Both the position numbers and the translations under genes were made by a program. Of a DNA stretch of 64,000 bases, positions 15,062 to 57,304 are shown piece after piece. Origin of the DNA: an uncultured Bacteroidota bacterium (lineage in GTDB: Bacteria; Bacteroidota; Bacteroidia; B-17B0; Aurantibacillaceae); assembly GCA_903834765.1 (NCBI GenBank), contig CAILKE010000043.1, positions 1 through 64,000 on the forward strand. Reading direction: 5' to 3'. Within the stretch, counting starts at the first letter, position 1; every line of letters begins with the position of its first letter. The notes beneath the pieces were generated by a model that was not told the DNA's origin, searched no databases, and was given only the letters and a program-made list of their open reading frames with translations.

Positions 15062-15529
15062 TTAAATTTTCTCCAAACAAGCTTTTATCGCATCAAAGTC
15101 TGGTTGTTTACCAGCATCTTCTAATACTTCAGCATATTGTAAAATACCGTTTTTATCAACTACAAAAGCCGAACGCTTAGATACGCCAATCATTCCAAAC
15201 GCAAATGTTTCGTAAAACGTGTTATAATCTTTAGAAGCTGTTTTATTAAAATCAGACAGTAAATCGAAATTATAATTTTGTTCTTTTTTAAATTTCTCTA
15301 GCGCAAACAAAGAATCAATAGAAACGCCTACTACTTCAGTGTTTAGAGAGGTATAAACATTATAATTATCTCTAATACTGCATAATTCGGCAGTGCATAC
15401 GCTAGTAAATGCTAGTGGAAAAAATAAAATCACAACGTTTTTGCCTTTGTAATCTGATAAAGACACTTCTTTTTTTTCGGTGTTAAATAATTTGAATTCT
15501 GGAGCCGCTTGTCCTACTTGAATAGCCAT
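15062..15529 (-). CDS. Peroxiredoxin (AhpE/BCP-like redoxin)
   Basis: 155 residues with the AhpC/TSA thioredoxin fold. The peroxidatic cysteine is Cys45 in FFPLAFTSVCTAELC, with a second cysteine at 50 that may resolve it as in atypical 2-Cys enzymes; Pro38 and Thr42 of the active-site loop are present. It reduces peroxides at the expense of a thiol partner. It is divergent from ahpC across a 115-bp gap, so the two peroxidases may share control. Confidence 0.9.
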   Translation of the reverse strand: MAIQVGQAAPEFKLFNTEKKEVSLSDYKGKNVVILFFPLAFTSVCTAELCSIRDNYNVYTSLNTEVVGVSIDSLFALEKFKKEQNYNFDLLSDFNKTASKDYNTFYETFAFGMIGVSKRSAFVVDKNGILQYAEVLEDAGKQPDFDAIKACLEKI

Positions 15530-15644: not shown

Positions 15645-16274
15645 ATGGCATTAGTAGGAAAAAAAGCACCTTCATTTAAGGCTTCAGCAGTAATTAACGG
15701 CGAAGAAATCGTTGAGGATTTTTCGTTAGATCAATACCTTGGAAAAAAACATGTGGTGTTTTTCTTTTACCCAAAAGATTTCACATTTGTTTGTCCAACA
15801 GAATTGCACGCGTTTCAAGAGAAATTAGCTGAATTCGAAAGTCGTGGTTGTGCAGTAGTTGGTTGTAGCACCGATACAGAGCAAAGCCACTGGGGTTGGT
15901 TACAATTAGACAAAAAGCAAGGTGGTATTAAAGGCGTTACATACCCAATTGTAGCGGATACAACAAAGGTTATCTCATTAAATTTTGACACCTTATTTGG
16001 TGATTATGATGTAAATGATAATGGAGATATCATTGCTACAGGCCCAATGATTGCATTCCGAGGTTTGTTTTTAATTGATAAAGAAGGAACCGTTCGTCAC
16101 CAATTAATTAACGATTTACCATTAGGACGTAATGTTGATGAGGCTTTACGTATGGTAGATGCTTTACAATATTTTGAAACAAAAGGCGAGGTTTGTCCTG
16201 CAAACTGGAGTAAAGGAAAAGATGGTTTAAAAGATACGCATGCTGGTGTTGCTGATTATTTAACGAAACACTAA
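15645..16274 (+). CDS. ahpC: Typical 2-Cys peroxiredoxin AhpC
   Basis: 209 residues. The peroxidatic Cys50 lies in FYPKDFTFVCPTEL and the resolving Cys (~184) in GEVCPANW, both at normal positions; Arg of the active site is in IAFRGLFLID. It reduces hydrogen and alkyl peroxides in the cytoplasm, with electrons from AhpF or thioredoxin. No ahpF is adjacent. A hairpin terminator follows 20 bp after the stop, so it is a single-gene transcript. Confidence 0.96.
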   Translation: MALVGKKAPSFKASAVINGEEIVEDFSLDQYLGKKHVVFFFYPKDFTFVCPTELHAFQEKLAEFESRGCAVVGCSTDTEQSHWGWLQLDKKQGGIKGVTYPIVADTTKVISLNFDTLFGDYDVNDNGDIIATGPMIAFRGLFLIDKEGTVRHQLINDLPLGRNVDEALRMVDALQYFETKGEVCPANWSKGKDGLKDTHAGVADYLTKH

Positions 16275-16365: not shown

Positions 16366-16520
16366 CTTTTTCCATAGATGAAAAAGAAACAATCACGCTT
16401 TGGCGTGACTAGTCAAAAATATGCTCTGCGCTCCTCACGGAATTCTACGGATTTTACGCTCCGCTAAATCCTTGAATTCTCGTTTCACCGCTTCTCTGCT
16501 CGCTACCGATAGCTATCGGT
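16366..16520. repeat. Composite intergenic repeat with three palindromes
   Basis: This gene-free stretch after ahpC is visibly richer in GC than its surroundings and holds three palindromes: CTTTTTCCATAGATGAAAAAG (16366-16386), TCACGCTTTGGCGTGA (16393-16408) and ACCGATAGCTATCGGT (16505-16520). The core of the last recurs at 56834-56850 inside a different element. No open frame is convincing. The look is that of a dispersed Bacteroidota intergenic repeat; from 16521 to 16686 I see nothing further. Confidence 0.55.
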
Positions 16521-16686: not shown

Positions 16687-16694
16687 TATCTTTA
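16687..16694 (+). promoter_or_regulatory. Possible -7 box of the lepA leader (TATCTTTA)
   Basis: One mismatch to TAnnTTTG; lies ~30 bp before the first hairpin element. If used, the lepA mRNA would carry a leader of about 200 nt holding both tandem hairpins. Confidence 0.3.
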
Positions 16695-16720
16695 CCGCTC
16701 TTATATTATTTATAAATGAA

Positions 16721-16795
16721 ATGGCCATGTTGCCAAAAGCACTAATACATATGAAGATAACATGGCTATACCATGTGACAATAAAAAAACAATAA
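16721..16795 (+). ncRNA. Candidate structured leader element, copy A
   Basis: An 11-bp stem, ATGGCCATGTT (16721-16731) with AACATGGCTAT (16759-16769), one pair being G-U, closes a 27-base loop; it is followed by ATACCAT and an A-rich tail (GACAATAAAAAAACAATAAAA). Copies B (directly downstream) and C (56804-56893) share the stem plan, the ACCAT block and the tail. The same strand also has a 22-codon frame from the ATG at 16727 ending in WLYHVTIKKQ. Whether it acts as RNA, as a leader peptide or merely as a repeat is open. Confidence 0.5.
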
Positions 16796-16810
16796 AAAAC
16801 ACACATGAAC

Positions 16811-16884
16811 TATCCAAGTTTACCTAAACAGAAAAGTTTACTAAAACAATTTGGATAAACCATGCGACAATAAAAAAACAATAA
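16811..16884 (+). ncRNA. Candidate structured leader element, copy B
   Basis: TATCCAAGTT (16811-16820) pairs with AATTTGGATA (16848-16857), 10 bp with one G-U, followed by ACCAT and the same A-rich tail as copy A, ending 9 bp before the lepA ATG. Relative to copy A two base pairs change on both sides (G-C to T-A, T-A to A-T), and two more are consistent changes. A 17-codon frame (16805-16858, [17 protein letters not shown]) spans the hairpin and could be a leader peptide. Confidence 0.5.
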
Positions 16885-16892
16885 AAATATAC

Positions 16893-18683
16893 ATGAAACA
16901 GATTCGTAACTTTTGCATTATTGCCCATATTGATCACGGTAAATCTACTTTGGCCGACCGTTTATTGGAATACACTAACACCATTTCTAAGCGAGAAATG
17001 CAAGCGCAGGTGTTGGATGATATGGACTTAGAAAAAGAACGTGGTATTACAATCAAGAGCCATGCTATACAAATGGATTACGTTTATAAAGGTGAAAAAT
17101 ATGTGTTGAATTTAATCGATACGCCTGGTCACGTTGATTTTAGTTACGAAGTATCTCGTTCGATTGCTGCTTGCGAAGGCGCCTTATTAATAGTAGATGC
17201 AGCACAAGGCATACAAGCACAAACAATATCTAATTTATATTTAGCGCTTGAACATAATTTAAAAATTATCCCGATCTTAAATAAAATAGATTTACCAAGC
17301 GCGGAGCCCGAAATGGTAAAGGATCAAATTGTTGATTTGTTGGGTTGCGACAGAGATGAGATCATGGCTGCTTCCGGTAAAACAGGAATGGGCGTGCATG
17401 AAATTTTAGAACAAATTGTTGAACGCGTTCCTGCGCCAAGCGGCGATGAAAAAGCGCCATTACAAGCGTTGGTGTTTGACTCGGTATTTAATTCGTTCCG
17501 CGGTATTATTGCGTATTTCCGTATTTACAATGGGTCTATCAAAAAAGGAGAAAAAGTAAAGTTCTTTAATACGGGCATGGAATATAATGCTGATGAAATT
17601 GGCGTATTACGTTTAAAGCCTGAGCCTAGAGATGTTGTATATACAGGCGATGTGGGTTATATTATTTCTGGAATTAAGGAAGCTAAAGAAGTAAAGGTAG
17701 GCGACACGTTAACAACGTTTGCTAATCCTTGTTTGGAAGGCATACATGGCTTTGAAGATGTGAAGCCTATGGTGTTTGCTGGTATTTATCCGGTTGACAC
17801 AGAAGACTATGAAGAGTTGCGTTATAGCATGGAGAAGTTGCAATTAAACGATGCGTCTTTAACCTGGGAGCCTGAATCATCGTTAGCATTAGGTTTTGGC
17901 TTTAGATGTGGCTTCTTGGGTATGTTGCACATGGAAATTATTCAAGAGCGTTTGGAGCGCGAGTTTAATATGACTGTGATTACAACCGTTCCCAACGTGT
18001 CTTATATAGCATATCAAACAAATGGCGATGTGGTGACGGTTAATAATCCTTCTGATTTGCCTGATCCAGCGCGTATAGATTATATTGAAGAACCGTATAT
18101 CAAAGCAAATATTATTACGAAGTCCGATTTCATTGGGCCCGTGATGAGTTTGTGTATTGAGAAACGCGGCAGCATCGTGACGCAAAATTATTTAACGGCC
18201 GATAGAGTAGAGTTAGTGTTTGAAATGCCTTTAGGTGAAGTGGTATTTGATTTCTTTGATCGTTTAAAATCAATTTCGAAAGGTTATGCTTCGTTCGATT
18301 ATCACCCAATAGGGATGCGCGAATCGGACTTAGTGAAATTAGATATTTTATTAAAAGGAGACATAGTTGATGCGTTATCTTGTTTGATACATAGAAGTAA
18401 CTCTTATCATTTTGGTAAAAAGATTTGTGAAAAGTTAAAAGAATTAATCCCGAAACAACAGTTCGAGATTCCTATACAAGCTGCCATTGGTGCTAAAATT
18501 ATTTCGCGTGAAACCATTAGTGCCATGCGTAAAGATGTTACTGCAAAATGTTATGGTGGTGATATTAGCCGTAAGCGTAAGTTACTAGAAAAACAAAAAG
18601 AAGGTAAGAAACGTATGAAATCTGTTGGTAATGTGGAGATTCCTCAAAGTGCATTTATGGCGGTTTTGAAACTGAATGATTAA
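16893..18683 (+). CDS. lepA: Elongation factor 4 (LepA)
   Basis: 596 residues from the ATG at 16893; a TTG at 16851 in the same frame would add 14 residues lacking family similarity and lie in the leader element, so it is rejected. LepA is a ribosome-dependent GTPase that acts on stalled or stressed translation, possibly back-translocating or aiding 30S maturation. The G domain has [14 protein letters not shown] (G1), [12 protein letters not shown] (G3) and NKIDLPSA (G4); the family's C-terminal region is present with [30 protein letters not shown]. Preceded by two tandem hairpin elements, so leader-mediated control is possible. No lepB adjacent. Confidence 0.97.
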
Positions 18684-35499: not shown

Positions 35500-37122
35500 T
35501 TAATAATCTCTATAAAATTGGTGGATGCTTGTTTTGATGCCAACATAAATATAAGGCGATTGTAATTCATAACCCAAATCATCTTTGATGCTGCGCTGTA
35601 TATAACCAAGTTCTAAACGTAAATTTAATTGAGGAATGGCGTAGTAGGTAAATTTAATATCGCTTTGTAATAGTTGAGTTTTGTTCCCTTGTGTGGTGTG
35701 GTGTCCGTATTCATAAGGGCGCGTGGTGTAACTCAAGAAAATATTTTGCCCTAAGTTGGAGCCCAAAGTATCTTTACCAACAGTTGCCGACATACCCTGA
35801 AAACTTAACATCCATCTATTAGCTCTGTAACTCACAAAACCTAAATACTCTCTGAAATTAGCTCCTAGTGGGTGCGCTAGGGGTTGTCCATAATTAGAAT
35901 AGTTTTGCTGCACGCTTCCATGCGAATAGGTATAAGGGCGAACTTCATTGTATTCTGCCTGTAAAGTGAGACCCTTAACTTTAAAAGCATTAATGTATTT
36001 GGCTCCAAACTGCCAACCTTGTTTATTTGCCCACCAACCCTTACCAGCTTTTATTTCTTTAAAATAAAATTCATCTGCCACACCTTGTGCATATACTTTT
36101 AAGCACTTAAATAATTTAACGCTGAGGTTTAAACCCATCATTGAATTGTCGGGAGAACCTACAGAATATTCTTGTGGACGATAAAAGATAATAGGGTTTA
36201 AATAATTGACATCAAAACTTCTGTTGCGATTGGTGTCATTGCCTTGCCAAACCACATTCTCAAAAAACGAAATACTAAATTCTTTTGTTGCGTTATAGGT
36301 TAAGTAATGAAAGGTTCCAAATTTATTTTGTAAACTTTTTTGTGTGCCGTCAAAGCGAGAGAAGTCTTGCATCCAGGAGTACCAAACGTTATATTGTATA
36401 TGCCAAATATGCGCATTGATACCAAAATAAGGGTTGTTGTTGGACAGATCAGAAAGTAATAAAGACCGATAGCCATCACCGATAAAATGTTTGTCTTTTC
36501 CCAACTGAAAATTAAATGTTGAATTTGGGCTGTAAGACAAGTATCCTGTAAGATTAGAAAAACTATAACTACCATCTGCATTTTTATAAGCGCGTCCAAG
36601 TCCTGGAATAAGTTGTGTTGTTTTAACCGTTGTGTCTGTGAAATTGGGATAGCTGACTCTGCCGCCAATGGCAGTTAATGCAAAAGTAAAATCATTATTG
36701 ATGTTTAATTTTACGTGCGCGCCACCAAATGTTTCTGACACAAAGCGTTTATCCAACACATCATAACCTGCTTGTAAATCAATAATAGGGAGGACCTGAG
36801 TTTGATACTGATTGCGCTTACTAGGCCCTTCATTAAATGTTTTGCTTAAAAAATAGTTTTTAATAGGAAAATGTAAAAACCCAATAGATGTATCCAAAAA
36901 ATTGTTTAACGAAGCGCTTAAATAAGGTTTAAATGAAGAGTGAAATTCCACATCGGGATGTTTGATATTCCATTCATCCAATATTTGTTGAGCGTCTTGA
37001 TTCATAAAAATATTTTGCGCCTGATGATTATCTTGTGCGCGAAACGATAAAGGAATGCAAGACAAAATGAACGCTACTTTAATAAACGTTAGGTTAAAAA
37101 AAGTATGTTTTAGTAAAATCAC
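35500..37122 (-). CDS. Outer-membrane Wzi/RemB-like barrel protein (copy 1)
   Basis: 540 residues with an N-terminal signal peptide (hydrophobic TFIKVAFILSCIPLSFRAQ) and a long beta-strand-rich region (strands such as FNFQLGKDKHFIGDGYRSLLL, LTLQAEYNEVRPYTYS, FREYLGFVSYRANRWMLSFQG) ending in an aromatic strand near the C terminus. The GKDKHFIGDGYRSLLLSD block is shared with the protein at 38229-39809 and recalls the Wzi capsule-assembly and RemB gliding-motility families. The start overlaps the end of the WecA-like gene by 4 bp (ATGA), so they are coupled. Role in surface polysaccharide or adhesion is inference from context. Confidence 0.78.
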   Translation of the reverse strand: MILLKHTFFNLTFIKVAFILSCIPLSFRAQDNHQAQNIFMNQDAQQILDEWNIKHPDVEFHSSFKPYLSASLNNFLDTSIGFLHFPIKNYFLSKTFNEGPSKRNQYQTQVLPIIDLQAGYDVLDKRFVSETFGGAHVKLNINNDFTFALTAIGGRVSYPNFTDTTVKTTQLIPGLGRAYKNADGSYSFSNLTGYLSYSPNSTFNFQLGKDKHFIGDGYRSLLLSDLSNNNPYFGINAHIWHIQYNVWYSWMQDFSRFDGTQKSLQNKFGTFHYLTYNATKEFSISFFENVVWQGNDTNRNRSFDVNYLNPIIFYRPQEYSVGSPDNSMMGLNLSVKLFKCLKVYAQGVADEFYFKEIKAGKGWWANKQGWQFGAKYINAFKVKGLTLQAEYNEVRPYTYSHGSVQQNYSNYGQPLAHPLGANFREYLGFVSYRANRWMLSFQGMSATVGKDTLGSNLGQNIFLSYTTRPYEYGHHTTQGNKTQLLQSDIKFTYYAIPQLNLRLELGYIQRSIKDDLGYELQSPYIYVGIKTSIHQFYRDY

Positions 37123-56761: not shown

Positions 56762-56803
56762 ATAACAACGCAAAAAATAAATCATTAAAATTAATTATAT
56801 GAA

Positions 56804-56893
56804 ATAGCCATGTTTGCCGAAACACAAACACATCCCGATAGCTATCGGGAGAAGATAAACTGGCTATACCATACGGTAAATAAAAAACAATAA
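56804..56893 (+). ncRNA. Candidate structured leader element, copy C
   Basis: ATAGCCATGTTT pairs with AAACTGGCTAT (one bulged base), followed by ATACCAT and an A-rich AAATAAAAAACAATAA tail, 9 bp before the ATG of the eRF1-like gene. It matches copies A and B before lepA. Its loop carries the palindrome TCCCGATAGCTATCGGGA (56833-56850). A 27-codon frame (56810-56893) ends WLYHTVNKKQ, like copy A. Confidence 0.5.
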
Positions 56894-56902
56894 TTTAGAC
56901 AT

Positions 56903-57304
56903 ATGAAAAATAATTTAGGAGTATGGATTGACGGCACTAAAGCTGTTATAGTTGACATAGCGAACAACTCTGTAATAGAGGTTTTAGCAAATATTGATAG
57001 TAAAACAAATCATATATCAGATAAAGAGGTCGGCAATTTTTTAGGAGCCGGTCATCATAATGGTGATGAAAGAACATACGAAGAGCGCAGAAAGCACCAA
57101 ACTCAAGCTTATTTGAATAATGTGATGGCTAAAATAAAAGGCGCTGATGGTATTTATGTGTTTGGTCCATCTGAGATGAAAACACATTTGAAAACGTATA
57201 TTGAATCAGACAAAAAACTAGCGACTGTTTTAAAAGCAGTTGATAGTGCCGATAAATTGACCGAAAACCAAATTGTGGCTGCTGTAAAAAAACAGTTTGC
57301 TTAG
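56903..57304 (+). CDS. eRF1/host-attachment-like small protein
   Basis: 133 residues, cytoplasmic. The start MKNNLGVWIDGTKAVIVDI, the basic middle (YEERRKHQTQAYLNNVMAKI) and GADGIYVFGPSEMKTHLKTYIES resemble bacterial proteins with an eRF1-domain or host-attachment fold, which in some lineages associate with ribosomes. No GGQ motif is seen, so it is not a peptidyl-tRNA hydrolase of release-factor type. Preceded by the same leader element as lepA, so a link to translation stress is tempting but unproven. Confidence 0.65.
   Translation: MKNNLGVWIDGTKAVIVDIANNSVIEVLANIDSKTNHISDKEVGNFLGAGHHNGDERTYEERRKHQTQAYLNNVMAKIKGADGIYVFGPSEMKTHLKTYIESDKKLATVLKAVDSADKLTENQIVAAVKKQFA

Follow-up and report, generated by a model that had tools for sequence, protein, structure and literature searches.

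Directly upstream of lepA, on contig CAILKE010000043.1 of an uncultured Bacteroidota bacterium, two similar hairpin-forming sequences follow each other in tandem, and a third copy is located about 40 kb away. This arrangement raises the question whether the copies share a conserved RNA fold, as the initial annotation proposed, or whether they represent a simple mobile repeat. All three copies that had been claimed are present in the window, i.e. the whole stretch of 64,000 nucleotides that was analyzed. Their location was given correctly, but the true units are slightly longer, and they do not end up to about 9 bases before an ATG or a short frame; each of the copies A, B and C opens with ATGAA and stops directly before the next ATGAA, and the link to gene starts as such was upheld. 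In general terms, a unit comprises 85-105 bp and consists of ATGAAA, a hairpin (P1), the motif CATNNG, an A-rich tail and Cnn, with the border exactly at ATGAA. A second helix, P4, is formed by CATNNG and the sequence around the following ATG. The features of the window, all on the plus strand, are as follows.

16687-16694, plus strand: TATCTTTA, which we take to be the Bacteroidota -7 promoter box of lepA (by-eye reading of the region aligned with congeners; promoter class assigned from established knowledge)
16716-16804, plus strand: copy A, one whole unit (ATGAAA...CAC), bordered by the ATGAA of copy B
16721-16731, plus strand: P1 5' arm of copy A
16759-16769, plus strand: P1 3' arm of copy A
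16772-16777, plus strand: P4 5' strand of copy A, CATGTG, reverse complement of the CACATG that holds the next ATG
16802-16807, plus strand: P4 3' strand of copy A, CACATG, containing the ATG that opens copy B
16805-16892, plus strand: copy B, one whole unit, bordered exactly by the ATG of lepA
16811-16820, plus strand: P1 5' arm of copy B
16848-16857, plus strand: P1 3' arm of copy B
16861-16866, plus strand: P4 5' strand of copy B, CATGCG, partial complement of the TACATG at the lepA start
16890-16895, plus strand: P4 3' strand of copy B, TACATG, containing the lepA start codon
16893-18683, plus strand: lepA (elongation factor 4); the listed open reading frame begins with TTG at 16851, which falls within copy B, and the true start is 16893
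56799-56902, plus strand: copy C, one whole unit of a recent, near-identical subfamily, bordered exactly by the ATG of the next gene
56834-56849, plus strand: CCCGATAGCTATCGGG, second palindromic repeat, found within the loop both in copy C and in many sister copies
56903-57304, plus strand: gene of 133 amino acids 3' of copy C, with no Pfam match and with weak relatives in congeners

The A-rich tail GACAATAAAAAAACAATAAAA matches exactly between copies A and B, as had been observed before, and the base-pair changes noted between these copies could be reproduced: pair 9 switches from G-C to T-A and pair 13 from T-A to A-T, and two further changes affect pair 8 (G-T to A-T) and pair 14 (G-C to G-T). 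In RNA folding, copies A, B and C performed better than shuffled sequences, with z values of -3.2, -5.8 and -4.9, respectively.

Several other features were observed in the vicinity of the copies. The perfect palindrome CCGATAGCTATCGG is located at 16506-16519, in the gap before lepA, and again at 56835-56848, in the loop of copy C, with zero chance occurrences expected. Since many sister copies of the own genome (G000) carry it in their loop, this second repeat seems to insert into the hairpin element. In four copies of the same genome (C4:165621-165753, C4:192432-192544, C23:45899-46013 and C44:4210-4314), the ACCAT is directly followed by a third palindromic insert, CCCGAATCAAGTTCGGGACAAGTTATG. 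Upstream of lepA, two adjoining, divergent genes of the AhpC/TSA family (peroxiredoxin type) are encoded at 15062-15526 on the minus strand and at 15645-16271 on the plus strand.

The two helices P1 (10 pairs) and P4 (6 pairs) covary strongly among 55 diverse copies. Paired cells amounted to 87.3%, compared to 75.0 ± 0.8 in shuffles, double-changed cells to 101, compared to 29.5 ± 4.2, and the covariation score to 0.323, compared to 0.120 ± 0.010 in shuffles that keep shared ancestry in and at most 0.091 in slid controls; the helix combinations nonetheless reappear in more than one family of the class. The covariation of a conserved fold, which had been suspected from copies A and B, is thus real. 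In P4, the CATNNG that follows the hairpin and the terminal CnnATG, start codon included, are reverse complements of each other, and at least six versions of this pairing occur: CATATG/CATATG, CATGTG/CACATG, CATCTG/CAGATG, CATTTG/CAAATG, CATAAG/CTTATG and CATACG/CGTATG.

A covariance-model search of Bacteroidota genomes, as suggested by the initial annotation, indeed retrieved many copies. The own genome yielded 48 BLAST matches with copy A as the query and about 57 copies with the covariance model R1 (57 at E values up to 1, the best starting from 2e-13). Given these genome copies and the covariation across 55 diverse copies from many genera, chance is excluded. Including the own genome, 23 of 41 genomes carry the element, and its copy number ranges from 0 to 56 among species of one genus, with 56 copies in G011. 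It was also detected in 40 of the 295 genomes of the class, where the scan scored only 14 candidates per genome; the copy numbers from the large searches are lower bounds. A second model, R2, detected the element in 21 of 296 genomes of the phylum, including two from outside the class, and two single-contig genomes contain 30 and 27 copies. A pattern scan of named genomes added Flavobacterium terrigena, with at least three copies, as well as Lacinutrix, Confluentibacter and several metagenome bins of Bacteroidota; a Colwellia bin and Firmicutes also gave pattern matches, which were dismissed as chance upon reading, and neither of two pattern matches in viral contigs was upheld by the covariance model. 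The initial annotation could not name any fitting riboswitch or leader, and Rfam likewise contained no match at the gathering score, nor did relaxed thresholds bring up anything relevant. No description matching the element was found in the literature searched, and the hairpin element apparently constitutes a tiny (about 90 bp) mobile family that has so far gone undescribed.

Its mobility becomes visible at lepA itself. We read the region upstream of lepA in 16 congeners, none of which (0/16) carries the element; in nearly all of them, TTAT and then ATGAAR come after a TATCTTTG-like box, and the junction fits the window by eye. In this empty-site comparison, which for the own genome covers the one site at lepA, exactly copies A and B are inserted in the window, downstream of the presumed promoter box. 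Because the box (mostly TATCTTTG) is found at the same place in the congeners, the element is located in the presumed transcribed leader. For the gene behind copy C, the congener orthologues were too weak for such a comparison. Another junction was found in an orthologous gene of G003 and G005, where both genomes have an old copy and G005 has an extra exact 88-bp unit at ATGAA. Moreover, 17 of the 49 analyzed copies of the own genome have a sister copy from which they differ by no more than 1%, tandem arrays reach five units, and the element is rarely found at the same gene in different genomes. Shared downstream genes were considered as a sign of regulation and rejected, since the few recurrences represent either inheritance among closely related species or distinct subtypes upstream of one gene. 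From these junctions and from the near-identical and tandem copies before unrelated genes we conclude that we are dealing with a mobile miniature element rather than with a conventional riboswitch, and copies A, B and C probably belong to a miniature mobile DNA element that is non-autonomous and inserts at ATGAA. With regard to the initial question, the repeat is mobile, but it also has a conserved fold, and it inserts at start codons.

Almost all copies of the own genome stop directly before an ATGAA which opens a real reading frame in the sense direction. As a rule, the unit border coincides with a gene's start codon, at about 90% of sites and then always in sense. The tight link to gene starts that had been anticipated was borne out by 248 copies from 43 genomes: a gene start forms the border of 181 copies and a further copy that of 29, whereas about 18 copies are truly elsewhere, e.g. 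L265, which is located antisense behind a gene end; an open frame of at least 60 codons, or a frame running off the stretch, counted as a gene start, the remainder was sorted by eye, and gene calls are simple longest frames. As a background, 39% of the genes in the window start with ATGAA, and starts account for 20 of its 47 ATGAA sites that are either starts or non-coding (element-internal sites left out), compared to 139 of 362 such sites in 400 kb of two other genomes. The fraction of starts expected among non-coding ATGAA sites is 0.38-0.43, and the excess of starts in the own genome has a P of about 1e-8, where the counts in the test (34/39 and about 195/213) are partly hand-made and target choice is counted together with retention by selection. 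Since starts make up only 38-43% of the background, this excess goes far beyond a mere avoidance of coding DNA. The downstream genes, named by eye from their translations, are unrelated and include lepA, rimK, gcvH, bshA, queA, lipoproteins, helicases and others; the idea of a leader of translation genes is refuted by this diversity and by the mobility of the element.

It could be argued that the element is in essence a cis-regulatory RNA, riboswitch-like or a protein-bound leader, in which P4 hides the start codon and which was spread by duplication or recombination and kept for gene control. P4 indeed holds the start codon and covaries, and the unpaired loop bases ACAAACACnAAtGAAGATA recur across families. 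P1 and P4 have also changed less than the remaining sequence of orthologous resident copies, with helix changes of 3/150 compared to 19/287 elsewhere in five pairs of such copies (P 0.04, based on small numbers), and all three helix changes leave G-U pairs, which hints that these copies may have some retained role in the transcript. However, the downstream genes share no common pathway, the element is missing at the same gene in related species, some copies are located away from gene starts, and P4 gives a C at -3, not the A that is favorable in Bacteroidota (PMC6847099). Furthermore, G-U is not clearly favored over A-C in the family as a whole: the mismatches in P1 comprise 28 G-U and 18 A-C, compared to 1255 Watson-Crick pairs, and in model-fitted alignments the ratio of G-U to A-C is 16/14 in P1 and 7/7 in P4. 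In RNA helices, G-U is generally far better tolerated than A-C, and the similar numbers of both, counted for this family alone, thus point to a folded DNA strand. In view of this evidence, we regard an explanation by cis-regulatory RNA as rather unlikely. An effect on the host gene is a separate matter. In Flavobacterium johnsoniae, an A at -3 favors initiation, which is also tuned by mRNA structure (PMC6847099); the element places its C at this position and the start codon within P4, and it also supplies an A-rich tail, and it is likely to alter translation of the downstream gene.

For the mobile DNA element, the following course of events is probable. A unit inserts with an exact junction at ATGAA, mostly at the start codon of a gene and there always in sense, and leaves ATGAA at both ends; the host gene retains its start codon, and its message then begins with the element. 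Repeated insertion at one start codon generates tandem arrays, such as A-B before lepA, and P1 and P4 may be the helices of a folded single DNA strand which is handled during movement. The strand opposite the gene reads TTCAT, a linker of about 25 nt, a CnnATG "guide", the hairpin and TTTCAT. At -1 of the target, T is present in 79% of the copies of the main guide class compared to 32% in the background, which corresponds to an A after TTCAT on the opposite strand and is similar to the +1 preference described for IS608 and ISDra2 (PMC5934647). Between the guide and the base before the target ATG, at the far end, no covariation was detected beyond the fixed ATG/CAT pairing, and the guide alone does not account for the preference for start codons over other ATGAA sites. 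The orientation of the element relative to replication is without clear bias in G481, where the origin is uncertain. It is possible, albeit doubtful, that start codons are found by design, in that the CAT-bearing guide would pair with ATG and the element would settle without gene destruction, supplying a new translation start region, with a mover enzyme beyond the Y1, reverse transcriptase and IS110 groups.

These three groups were considered as movers and rejected, since they showed no link to copy number: a Y1/RAYT transposase was not detected in G011 (56 copies), G015, G019, G004 and G016, no reverse transcriptase was found in G011, G015, G003, G001, G008 and G009, and the IS110 DEDD transposase is absent in G000, G005, G011 and G015. 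The mover thus appears to belong to none of them. A REPIN-like element, moved by RAYT or by an IS200-type Y1 transposase proper, would be in line with the hairpin and its adjacent guide, the tandem arrays and the extragenic location (PMC3116915, PMC6006769), and the own genome does encode one RAYT-like Y1 gene (C53 near 35928-36500, locus L185, and L186). However, this gene is flanked by another palindrome, CCTGTCAGGTTTTAAAACCTGACAGG, most carriers lack relatives of it, and no Y1 is detectable in G011 with its 56 copies; we regard this explanation, too, as rather unlikely. The RAYT of G008 likewise has CCTGTCAGGTTTTAAAACCTGACAGG in its vicinity. Insertion at the RNA level, in which the RNA of the element enters an mRNA at AUGAA and is then copied back into the genome, would account for both the sense orientation and the start-codon preference, but the negative search for reverse transcriptases and the copies that are antisense or beyond genes (L265) make it very unlikely. 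Finally, the ATGAA at both element ends might be read as the 5-bp target duplication of a classical DDE-type MITE; terminal inverted repeats are absent, however, and the single hairpin is internal and one-sided, and we give this explanation hardly any credence.

Bacterial miniature elements are usually viewed as landing anywhere between genes, and Bacteroidota are, to our knowledge, a phylum without Shine-Dalgarno signals. The element described here lands at the first codon, presumably also that of important genes, and rewrites leaders in many Bacteroidota. It offers a natural system for studying how start codons can serve a selfish element as a safe site and how translation is affected.

Among known systems, the TAACTGA heptamer repeats (PMC4679880) are similar in that they are located just upstream of the start codons of unrelated genes, occur in a few Bacteroidetes as well and have no known mover, but they comprise 7 nt of another sequence, without this hairpin, and no exact start-codon junction is reported for them. 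A MITE of Porphyromonas gingivalis is likewise a miniature element of Bacteroidota containing tandem repeats, whereas these are reported as a minisatellite within an inverted-repeat MITE (PMC4596501). REPINs and REP sequences, which are moved by RAYT transposases (PMC3116915, PMC8266576), share with the element the miniature size, the extragenic hairpin in many copies, the tandem arrays and the guide by the hairpin foot. REPINs consist of two inverted REPs around a spacer, whereas the element has one asymmetric hairpin, P1, with an asymmetric tail, start-codon ATGAA as its site, carriers without a linked RAYT and one recognizable fold and tail, which are conserved across genera and families of Bacteroidota. 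The ends of IS200/IS605 and the miniature elements derived from them (PMC5934647, PMC6006769) also have a strand-specific 5-nt target (here TTCAT), a guide 5' of the hairpin and a next-base preference; in IS200/IS605, it is the cleavage site that pairs with the guide 5' of the hairpin foot, and the base next to the target is of importance. A fixed site of 4-5 nt on one strand was found here as well (ATGAA/TTCAT in nearly all copies and at the lepA and G003/G005 junctions), and guide-cleavage site pairing is evident at the gene-side end from the CATNNG/CnnATG covariation and at the far end as the fixed ATG/CAT only, while several carriers lack a detectable Y1 transposase. In contrast to IS200/IS605, the element would make do with one hairpin and one guide for its two ends, no transposase gene was found with it, and it prefers start codons, which is not reported for IS200/IS605 in PMC5934647 and PMC6006769. 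Judged by these features, the design of the element resembles that of IS200-like elements, as a candidate likeness.
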